Part shown: piece after piece, positions 17,714 to 33,901 of the stretch | How the letters are laid out: every line of letters starts with the position of its first letter | Numbering within the stretch: position 1 is the first letter of the stretch | Assembly (NCBI GenBank): GCA_002773395.1 | Contig: PFBI01000003.1 | Location: 1,027 to 43,508 of the forward strand | Direction: 5' to 3' | DNA from: Candidatus Kaiserbacteria bacterium CG10_big_fil_rev_8_21_14_0_10_47_16 | GTDB lineage: Bacteria; Patescibacteriota; Minisyncoccia; Phycocordibacterales; UBA918 | Length of the DNA stretch: 42,482 bases | Notes under the pieces: model-generated | What the model saw: the letters and a program-made list of their open reading frames with translations, nothing else | Told to the model about the DNA's origin: nothing | The model's database searches: none | Made by a program: the position numbers and the translations under genes

Positions 17714-17760
17714 GTAATACAAAAAGCCGCGGACGAATGTCCGCGGCTTTTTGTATTACC
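17713..17760. terminator. Bidirectional terminator between recA and the convergent gene
   Basis: 22-bp perfect stem GGTAATACAAAAAGCCGCGGAC-GAAT-GTCCGCGGCTTTTTGTATTACC. Confidence 0.9.
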
Positions 17761-18088
17761 CTTGCATCATCTCAGTGTGTACCGTATGTACTCGAAATGA
17801 TTTGAGTTGAATGCGGAATGAGAGCGCCGTATAGATAAGTGCTGCTGCAAGGAAGAGTGTCCAGACTTCTGTATGCGTCACCGCGTCATACGCATAGTGC
17901 CCAAGTTGCCCTACGCGTACGCCCGATAGATTCTGCATAACATGTGCCGCTGAAACGAAGCGTGTCAGTACAAGAAGAAGCCCGAACATCACAAGACCGT
18001 GAAGAAGTGTAGGGTTTGAAAGTACGCGAATGCCGTACGTGTAGTACACGCGCCGCATAATATGTTTTTGTAGTGTTTCTCTTTTCAT
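17756..18088 (-). CDS. Hypothetical 2-TM membrane protein next to an ECF sigma factor
   Basis: 110-aa ORF with two hydrophobic helices. Confidence 0.7.
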   Translation of the reverse strand: MKRETLQKHIMRRVYYTYGIRVLSNPTLLHGLVMFGLLLVLTRFVSAAHVMQNLSGVRVGQLGHYAYDAVTHTEVWTLFLAAALIYTALSFRIQLKSFRVHTVHTEMMQG

Positions 18089-18126: not shown

Positions 18127-18771
18127 TTATAAAAGTGACGCTTCCCCAGCTTCCTTTCGAAATGCTTCTTTTGCTCTATGGATACGCGCCTTCACTGCGC
18201 CCGCAGTCTCCCCAGACTCGCGTGCAATATCTTTATGTGACCACCGCTCAAGGTAGTGAAGTCTGAGCACGTACGCAAAGTGTCCCGGCAACTTCTCCAA
18301 GACCCGTTCAATACCATCTTTATCTTCCTCAAATCCTGAATGAAGAGTCACATCTCCTTGTAACTCCCAGAGTTCAGGATCGAGTTGGAGTGTACGCTTC
18401 CCTTCCTTTACCAACTTCTGATACCGCGTGAAGGCGGTATTCATAAGAATGGTGTACGCCCACGAGGTAAACTTCGCACCTTCACGCACTTCAAACCGAG
18501 ATGCGTTCATGTATATCTTTGTGAACGTATCTTGTACTATTTCTTCTGCATCTTGTTCATTATGAAGCACTGTCTTTGCCTTACGGAGAAACGCATCTTG
18601 GTAGCGTTCGAGGAGAACCGCGAAAAGCCACGGCTCACTCTGCGAGCGCATTAAAATTTCCTCATCTGAGTAATCTCGTGCTTCTCCTCGTGCTGTGTAG
18701 CCAAACATATGTGGTTCTGGTACTATTGCTCGCGTCCATAGACCTCGAGACAGACCGTATTTACTTATCAT
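18127..18771 (-). CDS. RNA polymerase sigma factor, sigma-70/ECF family
   Basis: DAEEIVQDTFTKIYMNASRF...FTSWAYTILMNTAFTRYQ...LPGHFAYVLRLHYLERWSHKDIARESGETAGAVKARIHRAKEAFR. Confidence 0.92.
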   Translation of the reverse strand: MISKYGLSRGLWTRAIVPEPHMFGYTARGEARDYSDEEILMRSQSEPWLFAVLLERYQDAFLRKAKTVLHNEQDAEEIVQDTFTKIYMNASRFEVREGAKFTSWAYTILMNTAFTRYQKLVKEGKRTLQLDPELWELQGDVTLHSGFEEDKDGIERVLEKLPGHFAYVLRLHYLERWSHKDIARESGETAGAVKARIHRAKEAFRKEAGEASLL

Positions 18772-18789
18772 ACACTAAACCATATTCCT

Positions 18790-19365
18790 ATGGCAGTACT
18801 CGCATATAACGAAATTACACTTAAAAAGTTCATTGTTTTTAACAATGAACCATGTCTCGTGGTTGCATCTCACGTCTTTCGGAAACAACAACGAAAGCCC
18901 GTCAACATCACCAAACTCAAAGGGTTTGTATCAGGACGTACCTACGAACAAACATTTCACCAAAATGAAACTGCGAACGAAGCCGATCTTGAACGCACGA
19001 CCATTGAGTATATCTATGAAAATCGTGGCGAGTATTGGTTCTGCCCTATCGGGAAGCCCGCTGAACGATTTGCGCTTTCTCCTGAACTTGTTGGTGATCA
19101 AGGACACTTCCTAAAGCCAAAGAGCGAGATTGAAGCGCTCGTGTATGATGAAAAAATTATTGGAGTCACCATCCCTATTAAAGTTGACCTCGTCGTGAAG
19201 CATGCCGATCCTGCCGTGAAAGGAAACACTTCATCAAGTGCCACAAAAGAAGTGACGCTTGAAACGGGGGCCCACATTCACGTACCGATGTTCATCAATG
19301 AAGGTGACGTCATCCGTGTGAATACTGAACTTGGCGAATACACTGAACGCGTCGATAAGGCGTAA
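18790..19365 (+). CDS. efp: Elongation factor P
   Basis: NEITLKKFIVFNNEPCLVVASHVFRKQQRKPVNITKLKGFVSGRTYEQTF... and GDVIRVNTELGEYTERV. Confidence 0.93.
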   Translation: MAVLAYNEITLKKFIVFNNEPCLVVASHVFRKQQRKPVNITKLKGFVSGRTYEQTFHQNETANEADLERTTIEYIYENRGEYWFCPIGKPAERFALSPELVGDQGHFLKPKSEIEALVYDEKIIGVTIPIKVDLVVKHADPAVKGNTSSSATKEVTLETGAHIHVPMFINEGDVIRVNTELGEYTERVDKA

Positions 19366-19386: not shown

Positions 19387-19416
19387 AGGGGCCGGAACGC
19401 GTACGTTCCGGCCCCT
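19387..19416. terminator. Bidirectional terminator
   Basis: AGGGGCCGGAACG-CGTA-CGTTCCGGCCCCT followed by TTT. Confidence 0.85.
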
Positions 19417-19420
19417 TTTG

Positions 19421-19492
19421 TCACCAGCATTTCGAGATGACCCCAGCCACCGCTACAGCGAACAAGATGATTGCGGGAATCCAGCTAGCCAT
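19421..19492 (-). CDS. Mini hydrophobic protein (23 aa)
   Basis: MASWIPAIILFAVAVAGVISKCW*, overlaps the end of the upstream mini-gene. GGAAAGG lies upstream. Confidence 0.45.
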   Translation of the reverse strand: MASWIPAIILFAVAVAGVISKCW

Positions 19493-19652
19493 GTCCGGTA
19501 CCTTTCCAGAAAAGATGGAACATCCCTGCCACCGTGACTGCAATCGCTACCAAGGCGACAGCGATCCCGACGAGTGTGACCCTACGTCGAGACTTCTTCT
19601 CAGGAGGTTTCGGACGAAGCCGACTGGGACGTGGACTCGTGAGTTTAACCAT
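19485..19652 (-). CDS. Mini membrane protein (55 aa), basic N-terminus + one TM
   Basis: MVKLTSPRPSRLRPKPPEKKSRRRVTLVGIAVALVAIAVTVAGMFHLFWKGTGHG*; SD GGGGAGA. Confidence 0.65.
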   Translation of the reverse strand: MVKLTSPRPSRLRPKPPEKKSRRRVTLVGIAVALVAIAVTVAGMFHLFWKGTGHG

Positions 19653-19712
19653 TCTCTATCTCCCCTTTTAGTGTGCCAGCTTGGACGATACCACTGTATA
19701 TATAAAAAAGCA

Positions 19713-19736
19713 AAAGGCCGCACGAGTGCGGCCTTT
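19713..19736 (-). terminator. Rho-independent terminator inside the mini-gene cluster
   Basis: Minus strand AAAGGCCGCA-CTCG-TGCGGCCTTTTGCTTTTTTA. Confidence 0.85.
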
Positions 19737-19747
19737 GAGGGGAGGTA

Positions 19748-19912
19748 TCATTGTTTTAGTTGCACAATAGATCCAATGATGGACCCGAGTGCAAAGACTA
19801 CAATGACGCCCAAGAGAACGTAGTGGCGATTATTTCTCCACCACATTGTGATGCGCGGGACCTTTTTTCGACTACGTCTTCGTGCATCTCGGACAGGTTT
19901 CCTATCGTACAT
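19748..19912 (-). CDS. Mini membrane protein (54 aa), basic N-terminus + one TM
   Basis: MYDRKPVRDARRRSRKKVPRITMWWRNNRHYVLLGVIVVFALGSIIGSIVQLKQ*; SD GGGAGG. Confidence 0.7.
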   Translation of the reverse strand: MYDRKPVRDARRRSRKKVPRITMWWRNNRHYVLLGVIVVFALGSIIGSIVQLKQ

Positions 19913-19927
19913 GTTACCTCCCACGAG

Positions 19928-20086
19928 TTACAGTGCTACTAGGACTAGTCCTAGTAGCATAACGGCGGCGATGATCAGTGCGGCAAGAAGCCCTTCTCCT
20001 GACTTTCGAGATTCTTGATTGCTTTTTACCATGCATTCTTGAAACTCTGTATTCGTCAGCGGTGGGCTGGTCTCGATTTCATCCAT
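19928..20086 (-). CDS. Mini membrane protein (52 aa), C-terminal TM
   Basis: MDEIETSPPLTNTEFQECMVKSNQESRKSGEGLLAALIIAAVMLLGLVLVAL*. The start overlaps the previous stop; GGAG upstream. Confidence 0.7.
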   Translation of the reverse strand: MDEIETSPPLTNTEFQECMVKSNQESRKSGEGLLAALIIAAVMLLGLVLVAL

Positions 20087-20204
20087 AGTAGATTCTCCAC
20101 GAGTTTGCAAGAATCGGCCAGAAATGCTGACCGTACATAAGCTGTGTGAACGGCTCGATGACACCAACTGCAATGAGGTTGGTTTCGAAGAAATTTACTC
20201 TCAT
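20079..20204 (-). CDS. Mini protein (41 aa)
   Basis: MRVNFFETNLIAVGVIEPFTQLMYGQHFWPILANSWRIYYG*; ATGA overlap with the upstream gene, GAGG SD. Confidence 0.65.
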   Translation of the reverse strand: MRVNFFETNLIAVGVIEPFTQLMYGQHFWPILANSWRIYYG

Positions 20205-20413
20205 TGATTTTCCTCAGTGATTTCATACTCCTTTGTGAGGAGGAGTTCGTCATCAGAAAGATTAATCAGGAAGGCCGTCTTTGGCGAAGGTCGTACCTGC
20301 GACCACACCTTGAGGCCCCACATGACTATGCCAAAGATTATGACCAGTAGGAATTCGAGCCATGTCAGATCATCATCCGTGACATCTTCTTCACGTTTTG
20401 ATACTTGTGACAT
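20201..20413 (-). CDS. Small membrane protein (70 aa)
   Basis: MSQVSKREEDVTDDDLTWLEFLLVIIFGIVMWGLKVWSQVRPSPKTAFLINLSDDELLLTKEYEITEENQ*; SD AAGGAGAG. Confidence 0.75.
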   Translation of the reverse strand: MSQVSKREEDVTDDDLTWLEFLLVIIFGIVMWGLKVWSQVRPSPKTAFLINLSDDELLLTKEYEITEENQ

Positions 20414-20432
20414 GTGGTCTCTCCTTTCCGAG

Positions 20433-20597
20433 CTAGGCTCCTGCCGTCAAAATGGCGAACAGGAGCATGAAGAAAAGTAGAATCACCCCGAACGCATTCT
20501 GGGATGATAATTCCTCGAAAAAACGAGTTCGCTCCTTCCCATCCTCAATACGGAGCCTGATCCTCGCTTCCACGTCCGAAGCCTGTAATGAACTCAT
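20433..20597 (-). CDS. Mini membrane protein (54 aa), C-terminal TM
   Basis: MSSLQASDVEARIRLRIEDGKERTRFFEELSSQNAFGVILLFFMLLFAILTAGA*; SD GGGGAG. The longer ORF-track start lacks an SD. Confidence 0.7.
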   Translation of the reverse strand: MSSLQASDVEARIRLRIEDGKERTRFFEELSSQNAFGVILLFFMLLFAILTAGA

Positions 20598-20687
20598 CAC
20601 GTACTCCCCATTCCATAAAATGTTAAAGATCTCCAGCACCTATACCGGCTGGTCTGGCGTAAAAGTATCACTTCTTTGGAAAAAAGC

Positions 20688-20718
20688 AAAACCCCGCGGC
20701 CAAAGGCCGCGGGGTTTT
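20688..20718. terminator. Rho-independent-type hairpin downstream of rpsR / upstream of the mini-gene cluster
   Basis: AAAACCCCGCGGCC-AAA-GGCCGCGGGGTTTT. Confidence 0.85.
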
Positions 20719-20829
20719 GTGTTTTATTTTCTAGGCAGGACGCTATCGCATGTTCGCACTCTGTCGTGCTCACGTGCTGAGCGTCTGCACAAGAAAATCA
20801 TAGTCGCACCGTTGGTGCTCGTTGCTTTT

Positions 20830-21009
20830 CTAGTATGAGATGTACGGCACAAGCGCCATAAATCGTGCTCGCTTCACTGCTCGCGCAAAGTCACGCTGTT
20901 CCTTTGCTGCAAGGTGTGTACGACGACGATTGTTCATACGCGCGTGTGGATTGAGGTTTGCGAGTAAACTCTCAGTATCCTTATAGTCGAAATGTTGTTT
21001 TTCAGTCAT
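20830..21009 (-). CDS. rpsR: Ribosomal protein S18 (bS18), 59 aa, below the ORF-track cutoff
   Basis: MTEKQHFDYKDTESLLANLNPHARMNNRRRTHLAAKEQRDFARAVKRARFMALVPYISY*; follows ssb as expected. Confidence 0.9.
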   Translation of the reverse strand: MTEKQHFDYKDTESLLANLNPHARMNNRRRTHLAAKEQRDFARAVKRARFMALVPYISY

Positions 21010-22254: not shown

Positions 22255-23154
22255 ATGTCTAAAGTAAGCCCTGAAACCGTTCGAAATCTCCTTATAGGAC
22301 TTATTGTCGTCCTCTCTGCGAGCGCAGCAACTCTGGGCTACTTTTTATACACCACGACGCAGACGCTCGAGACAACCCTTGCGACCACCTCAGCACGGAT
22401 CACAGAGCTTGAGGGGACCCTTTTAGACACACAAGAGCGGCTTGCGATAGCGACAAGTACCAACAACGAGCTTGAGAACAACCTCGTTGCAGAGAAAGAC
22501 CGGAATGACGGCTTTGCTGACCAAATTGATAAAATCACCGGTACGGTACAGGTTCTCGACAAACTCTCAAAAACCGACAAAGAGCTCCTTCAAAAATATT
22601 CAAAAGTGTACTTCCTCAATGAACACTACGTTCCTGACTCACTCTCCAGTATTGATAAAGAGTGGCTCTATAACGAAGCTATCAAAAAACAAATTCATAC
22701 GAAGGTAAATCCATTCCTCGAAGATATGCTCCAAGCGGCGCTCGACGATGGAGTAAAAATTTGGATTGTCTCTGCGTATCGCTCGTGGGATGAGCAAGCA
22801 AACCTAAAAGGTTCATACTCAATAACGTACGGTTCCGGAGCAAACACGTTCTCTGCTGATCAAGGCTACTCAGAACACCAACTCGGAACAACGCTCGACT
22901 TCACCACAGAGGGTATTGGTGGCGGCCTCGATGGTTTTGGAAACACGAAAGCATACCAATGGCTTCTTAATAATGCGTATAAATACGGTTTTGTTCTCTC
23001 CTACCCTGAAAATAATGGCTACTACATATTCGAACCATGGCACTGGCGATTTGTTGGTGAAGACCTCGCAAAGTATCTCGATAAAAATGACTTCAACTTC
23101 TACGACGTCGAGCAACGTAAAATCGATGAGTACCTTGTGAGTATCTTTGATTAA
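22255..23154 (+). CDS. D-alanyl-D-alanine carboxypeptidase, VanY family
   Basis: N-terminal TM + coiled coil, then VSAYRSWDEQANLKGSY...SEHQLGTTLDFT...WLLNNAYKYGFVLSYPEN...EPWHWRFVG. Confidence 0.92.
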   Translation: MSKVSPETVRNLLIGLIVVLSASAATLGYFLYTTTQTLETTLATTSARITELEGTLLDTQERLAIATSTNNELENNLVAEKDRNDGFADQIDKITGTVQVLDKLSKTDKELLQKYSKVYFLNEHYVPDSLSSIDKEWLYNEAIKKQIHTKVNPFLEDMLQAALDDGVKIWIVSAYRSWDEQANLKGSYSITYGSGANTFSADQGYSEHQLGTTLDFTTEGIGGGLDGFGNTKAYQWLLNNAYKYGFVLSYPENNGYYIFEPWHWRFVGEDLAKYLDKNDFNFYDVEQRKIDEYLVSIFD

Positions 23155-23163
23155 AAATTTTTT

Positions 23164-23191
23164 AAACCCGTGATCTTGCGATCACGGGTTT
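23164..23191. terminator. Bidirectional terminator
   Basis: AAACCCGTGATC-TTGC-GATCACGGGTTT. Confidence 0.8.
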
Positions 23192-23457
23192 TCCTTTTCT
23201 CCTCTGTCATCAGAGTACAGAAGTCTTCTTGCTTCTTGGTCGCTTACTTCCCAATAAGTACCACACCAGTCCGCAGGATCTTCTGATTCACAGTCCTCAC
23301 AAGTCCCTGGAGGGCACAGCTCATTTCTCCACACCACGTACCCGTGACGTGTAAAAATAAGATGCGGGCCGAGGTGTCGCGCAGGTCTAAGGCACTCTTT
23401 GGCGTGATCACTTTGCGTAATGTCCTGTCGAGTTGTGACAATCCCACATTGAGCCAT
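23182..23457 (-). CDS. Small Cys-containing hypothetical protein
   Basis: 91-aa ORF with strong SD AAGGAG before ATG; CPPGTCEDCESEDPADWCGTYWEVSDQEARRLLYSD. Confidence 0.6.
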   Translation of the reverse strand: MAQCGIVTTRQDITQSDHAKECLRPARHLGPHLIFTRHGYVVWRNELCPPGTCEDCESEDPADWCGTYWEVSDQEARRLLYSDDRGEKENP

Positions 23458-33658: not shown

Positions 33659-33901
33659 TCATGGCCCCAGGCATTGATTGGTATTCCAGAACTCTTTGGG
33701 GACACGGTCCCCAACCTCAATGATGACGAGGTTCCCATCATAACTTTCTTCAACGGCGTCACCGAAAATAAAAGCAAGGTTCTCTCGGTCGGTAACGGTC
33801 CAGCGCGAACCTGATGTATCACCGACCCCTGCCGACACAATCAGTACGGGGTACTGAAGATTGTTACATTCCTCAACTGAGGAAACGAGCGTCGTTGCCA
33901 T
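33659..33901 (-). CDS. Small hypothetical protein
   Basis: MATTLVSSVEECNNLQYPVLIVSAGVGDTSGSRWTVTDRENLAFIFGDAVEESYDGNLVIIEVGDRVPKEFWNTNQCLGP; SD AAGGAGG. Confidence 0.65.
   Translation of the reverse strand: MATTLVSSVEECNNLQYPVLIVSAGVGDTSGSRWTVTDRENLAFIFGDAVEESYDGNLVIIEVGDRVPKEFWNTNQCLGP

Follow-up and report, generated by a model that had tools for sequence, protein, structure and literature searches.

The junction between the convergent genes efp and rpsR of Candidatus Kaiserbacteria bacterium CG10_big_fil_rev_8_21_14_0_10_47_16 contains seven consecutive minus-strand ORFs (o1-o7), which we regard, with a probability of about 60%, as genuine genes for small membrane proteins, likely modulators, that form an island at species or genus level in a junction with fast gene turnover across the family. 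What this adds to the first reading is a conserved family-wide and strand-specific address for tiny membrane-protein genes, without conservation of their sequences. The window, i.e. the whole stretch of DNA analyzed here (42,482 nucleotides), belongs to a genome of 680,655 bases in 6 contigs, which is 99.7% complete and is the sole member of its genus among the genomes compared. The named EF-P matches are from the Parcubacteria/Paceibacteria side of the Patescibacteria, namely Nomurabacteria, Vogelbacteria, Adlerbacteria and Paceibacterota. Very small genomes are typical of Patescibacteria, many of which rely on host cells, and little is understood of their membrane biology. The features considered below, with positions in the window, are:

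22258-23154, opposite strand to the cluster: vanY-like gene, syntenic in most of the family
20830..21009, minus strand: rpsR, the upstream anchor together with ssb and rpsF, based on synteny in relatives
20687..20719, minus strand: terminator of 15 bp after rpsR and before the cluster, with a T-rich tail on the other strand too
20433..20597, minus strand: o1, 54 aa, ATG, SD GGAG; C-terminal TM at residues 36-54 (peak 2.59), a tail-anchored shape
20201..20413, minus strand: o2, 70 aa, ATG, SD AAGGAG; TM at 16-34 (peak 2.19), acidic N and C parts, net charge -8
20079..20204, minus strand: o3, 41 aa, ATG, SD match, ATGA overlap with o2; hydropathy peak 1.04, TM not clear
19928..20086, minus strand: o4, 52 aa, ATG, SD GGAG; acidic N part, C-terminal TM at 34-52 (peak 3.09)
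19748..19912, minus strand: o5, 54 aa, ATG, SD GGAGGT; very basic N part (+10), TM at 32-50 near the C-terminus (peak 2.75)
19713..19736, minus strand: internal terminator between o5 and o6
19485..19652, minus strand: o6, 55 aa, ATG, SD match; very basic N part (+9), TM at 27-45 (peak 2.62)
19421..19492, minus strand: o7, 23 aa, ATG, weakest SD; almost wholly TM (peak 2.34), a candidate coding ORF
19387..19416, minus strand: terminator that follows o7 and separates the cluster from the convergent efp
18790..19365, plus strand: efp, the downstream convergent anchor, based on synteny in relatives

A sequence-only reading of this DNA had described a row of seven minus-strand ORFs of 54, 70, 41, 52, 54, 55 and 23 aa, and all of them were recovered at the same places, each with an ATG start. 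The same holds for the ATGA overlap of o2 and o3 (20201-20204), the 8-nt overlap of o3 and o4 (20079-20086) and the overlap of o6 and o7 (19485-19492), which is likewise of 8 nt, and for the terminators that it had placed at 20688, 19713 (internal) and 19387, which we find at 20719-20687, 19736-19713 and 19416-19387. Elsewhere the ORFs are separated by 19 nt (o1-o2), 15 nt (o4-o5) and 95 nt (o5-o6), the last gap containing the internal terminator. Clear SD motifs had been noted on six ORFs; we find that all seven are preceded, at a permitted distance, by 4 nt or more matching the complement of the anti-SD, as against 21% of all ATGs genome-wide. Only those of o2 (AAGGAG) and o5 (GGAGGT) are strong, the others being modest to weak. 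That the products are mostly single-TM proteins is borne out by the 19-residue Kyte-Doolittle peak, which is at least 2.19 in six of the seven, o3 being the exception. Thus o1, o2 and o4-o7 each conform to the definition of an ORF of no more than ~100 aa with one membrane-spanning hydrophobic helix; o3 falls outside it and is not clearly a membrane protein. As a consensus scan for promoters at the cluster yielded no more than it does in shuffled sequence, transcription units can be drawn from the terminators only.

The coding potential of the ORFs was assessed with a codon model trained on genes of at least 200 aa and compared with 4977 shadow ORFs, i.e. wrong frames inside genes. The score of o2 is the best of the seven and is unmatched by any matched shadow ORF, while o6 (98.8%), o3 (98%), o4 (97.7%), o1 (97%), o5 (91%) and o7 (75%) occupy the indicated percentiles of the shadow distribution; taken singly, o1 and o5 are borderline and o7 resembles shadow ORFs. 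The joint codon log-odds of the seven (+0.049 per codon) stands well apart from that of length-matched shadow ORF sets (-0.343 +/- 0.077) and of TM-containing ones (-0.283 +/- 0.080), and none of 20,000 sets of either type reached the score of the cluster. Synonymous codon choice alone gives a weaker signal (P 0.002-0.008), above that of shadow ORFs but short of that of established genes, a level that would fit genes that are young, foreign or weakly expressed. No coding signal or family match was detected in the other minus-strand frames or in the two plus-strand ORFs of 128 aa at 19437-19823 and 20452-20838. These statistics suggest that o1-o6, as a set, are probably genes. The arrangement itself is also beyond what chance yields: no more than one SD-led TM ORF was found on any of 2000 dinucleotide-shuffled strands, against the six observed, a chain of seven ORFs has a probability of 0.0005 in such shuffles, and among 13,462 strand-windows of equal length across the whole genome the cluster alone reaches seven ORFs or more than three TM ORFs. 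The second-densest small-ORF run of the host genome is a gap at C6:235655-236571 of this genome (G000, locus L091), with three tandem SD-led, soluble-looking small ORFs of 115, 92 and 87 aa.

The genomic setting of the cluster is otherwise conservative. The local order recA> <TM protein <ECF sigma efp> <rpsR <ssb <rpsF vanY-like> <tatD <metG is kept in most family members, and the convergent pair efp> <rpsR is also seen in nearly all sampled loci from other families of the order, so that the seven ORFs constitute an insert splitting a junction conserved across family and order. They take up 1068 nt of a 1299-nt stretch between rpsR and efp; the two genes lie 1464 nt apart here, against a family median of ~300 nt. 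On the other side of efp, an ECF sigma factor gene (18127-18771, minus strand; TIGR02937) is followed by one for a 110-aa membrane protein (17756-18088, minus strand) that matches no family; most family members have this pair between recA and efp, and the membrane protein may be an anti-sigma factor. Two isolated minus-strand ORFs with strong SDs, of 91 aa at 23182-23457 (AAGGAG) and of 80 aa at 33659-33901 (AAGGAGG), do not encode TM proteins.

Other family members have either a short rpsR-efp gap (~50-130 nt) or one occupied by other, mostly tiny, ORFs. The junction is too short for genes in about one third of the family members, so nothing encoded there can be essential to the family. We counted ORFs of 23-110 aa with an ATG, an SD and a TM peak of at least 1.8 in 35 family genomes, the window being excluded, and in their junctions (11.4 kb) found 13 on the rpsR strand as against one on the opposite strand (strand test P 9e-4), a count made in the same loci where the enrichment had first been noticed. 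In 232 other gaps of these loci, which served as control, the corresponding numbers are 7 and 4 in 69.7 kb. The rate on the rpsR strand is therefore about tenfold higher at the junction (1.14 versus 0.10 per kb; P 2.4e-7), and this enrichment persists whichever of nine combinations of SD and TM thresholds is applied (P 2e-5 to 0.02). In 40 loci from other families, this junction has two such ORFs on each strand in 16.5 kb (0.12 per kb), and the contrast with the family is weaker, P ranging from 0.007 to 0.07 over the threshold combinations. In two loci of other families (L109, L110) the gap holds, instead of tiny genes, a 171-aa ORF on the efp strand with a GGPCAGKTT P-loop (kinase/AAA-like).

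The peptides encoded at the junction in relatives are mostly unrelated in sequence. The nearest relative by RecA (G008, 88%) has two SD-led single-TM peptides of 37 and 30 aa there, G028 has ORFs of 50, 69 and 42 aa, and even two loci with RecA proteins 96% identical (L039 and L046) have no detectable tiny junction ORF in common. Judged from these comparisons, the gene content of the junction is turning over fast. One tiny TM protein is common to the junctions of G028 and G030 (L037, L049), with 33% identity over 40 aa and different neighbors; it displays the pattern PxEI..IE..ER..D..R..xFGW, belongs to no known family and is found in only 2 of 49 genomes. The junction membrane proteins of L034, L054 and L067, with a T(G/H)S..xA..xY pattern, are only suggestive of a small family, the grouping having been made after the pattern was seen, which renders its profile hits circular.

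Relatives of o1-o7 themselves were sought with phmmer, tblastn and pattern scans. None was recovered in 40 syntenic family loci or in phages, pattern scans of viral contigs and of 84,980 genomes likewise gave none, and for o1 none was detected in 99 genomes; 397 genomes of the order returned only generic TM matches (E 1e-4 to 0.05). Shuffled Smith-Waterman comparisons of the seven among themselves and with the junction peptides of relatives gave a best z of 3.7 in 266 comparisons, which is unconvincing. The ORFs are so far confined to one genome. The statement that they belong to no known family stands, as Pfam, NCBIfam, PHROGs and PADLOC profiles gave nothing above cut-off. The suggestion of holins is not supported, and neither are phage or defense genes: PHROGs, PADLOC, phages and viral contigs gave no match. 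The sequence-only reading had also counted a lack of conserved ORFs in relatives against itself, and in the genomes searched this is literally the case for o1-o7; what favors genes is their codon usage, together with the one-strand excess of other tiny TM ORFs that the family shows at this site. The one notable sub-threshold hit is that of o5 to synaptobrevin (PF00957), at 23 bits (E 7e-5; curated cut-off 26.4). Since only profile positions 58-88 are matched and positions 1-57, i.e. the SNARE core, are not, o5 was rejected as a SNARE, and the likeness is best read as a probable convergence on a WW-basic membrane border. An anti-phage defense role was likewise searched for in the PADLOC models, without a match to the cluster. 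Cargo of a mobile element was rejected in view of the lack of terminal repeats, an integrase, a tRNA target or foreign composition at the insert, and a phage holin/lysis module in view of the empty phage searches and the lack of an endolysin in the insert; the vanY-like gene nearby lies on the opposite strand and is syntenic across most of the family.

The tight overlaps, the common strand and the complementary charges (+10/+9 versus -4/-8) could be taken to mean that all seven proteins, or o1-o5, form one membrane complex, with acidic tails pairing with basic ones in the cytoplasm, the helices bundling and the overlapping starts setting the stoichiometry. We consider this unlikely, because the set recurs in no relative, relatives having one to three different genes at the junction, and the internal terminator divides it. 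Even the gene common to G028 and G030 has different neighbors, and the quick replacement of such genes one by one is not expected of a conserved complex. An envelope-stress operon, which the sequence-only reading had also put forward, is conceivable. Their orphan status, fast turnover and weak synonymous codon bias would also fit young proto-genes, i.e. recently born, expressed and largely functionless ORFs kept since a site between two convergent operons tolerates insertions. This appears quite unlikely, as the joint coding signal is strong, SD-led TM ORFs almost never arise in shuffled sequence, and T makes up 25.3% of the coding strand, as in genes, in contrast to the T-rich non-genic start of the TM-first route (PMC7005711).

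It is very unlikely that the cluster encodes toxin-like or holin-like peptides, such as a type I toxin, a lysis or phage remnant or a bacteriocin. The small size, hydrophobicity and basic tails of the peptides would agree with such systems; the peptides also fit a type I toxin-antitoxin, for which the cluster showed no Rfam match and no more promoter hits than shuffles. Against the reading, neither the profiles of PHROGs, PADLOC, Pfam and NCBIfam nor phages and viral contigs gave a match, and the insert, which has the composition of the host, contains neither repeats nor an integrase or lysin. Confinement to a single genome without homologs might finally point to a decayed multi-pass membrane protein gene read in pieces, or to chance ORFs. 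Of all the readings this is the least credible, and we regard it as extremely improbable: the pieces each start from a separate ATG behind an SD, and most of them include a soluble part as well, the alternative frames match no family, and many relatives have only a short, empty gap without a donor gene. Chance ORFs are excluded at the levels of the shuffle and genome-window tests.

The island of genuine small membrane-protein genes hence remains our preferred reading. Under it, o1-o5 and o6-o7 would form two short transcription units, as delimited by the terminators, with translation probably coupled through the overlaps o2/o3, o3/o4 and o6/o7. The products would mostly be tail-anchored, each with a charged cytoplasmic N part, predicted to be acidic in o1, o2 and o4 and strongly basic in o5 and o6, and one membrane helix; as the helix lies at or near the C-terminus in o1, o4, o5 and o6, following charged N parts, an N-in, tail-anchored topology is the simplest guess. 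By analogy, they may bind and modulate larger membrane proteins or the membrane itself, and would most likely act individually or a few together; neither a fixed machine of seven parts nor a role as holins or toxins is supported. It is conceivable, although we hold this only tentatively and as less probable than not being so, that the efp-rpsR junction is a dedicated diversification locus, where every lineage places tiny membrane proteins of its own in one position and on one strand. If so, these might constitute a fast-evolving interface to host cells, to phages or to the cell's own transport machinery, and the present genome, with seven genes in two operons, would have the largest set. The conserved address offers a position-based route to tiny membrane-protein genes where sequence search fails, and the junction allows the rapid turnover of small proteins in reduced genomes to be put to the test.

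YohP, AcrZ, KdpF and CydX are named examples of bacterial small membrane proteins. Proteins of this kind are described (PMC7549839, PMC12719787 and PMC11539335) as often linked to stress and as binding and adjusting larger membrane proteins or affecting the membrane under stress. The cluster ORFs resemble them in being under ~70 aa, SD-led and with a single TM; unlike them, for they are mostly single genes beside or acting on a known partner, the cluster ORFs are seven in a row, with no partner in the cluster and no sequence kin. Among CPR-enriched families, 76 of 106 have at least one predicted TM helix and most are poorly annotated functionally (PMC6744442); these families are widespread, in contrast to o1-o7, seen thus far in a single genome. 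In both synaptobrevin (PF00957) and o5, a C-terminal TM comes after a juxtamembrane WW(R/K)N, but o5 is devoid of the SNARE core and scores below the curated cut-off. Finally, in yeast small TM ORFs emerge from T-rich non-genic DNA by a TM-first route (PMC7005711), and these too are orphan, intergenic and subject to fast turnover at a syntenic site; the cluster differs from them in that it is not T-rich, has an SD-led, operon-like order with terminators, and displays a clear coding signal.
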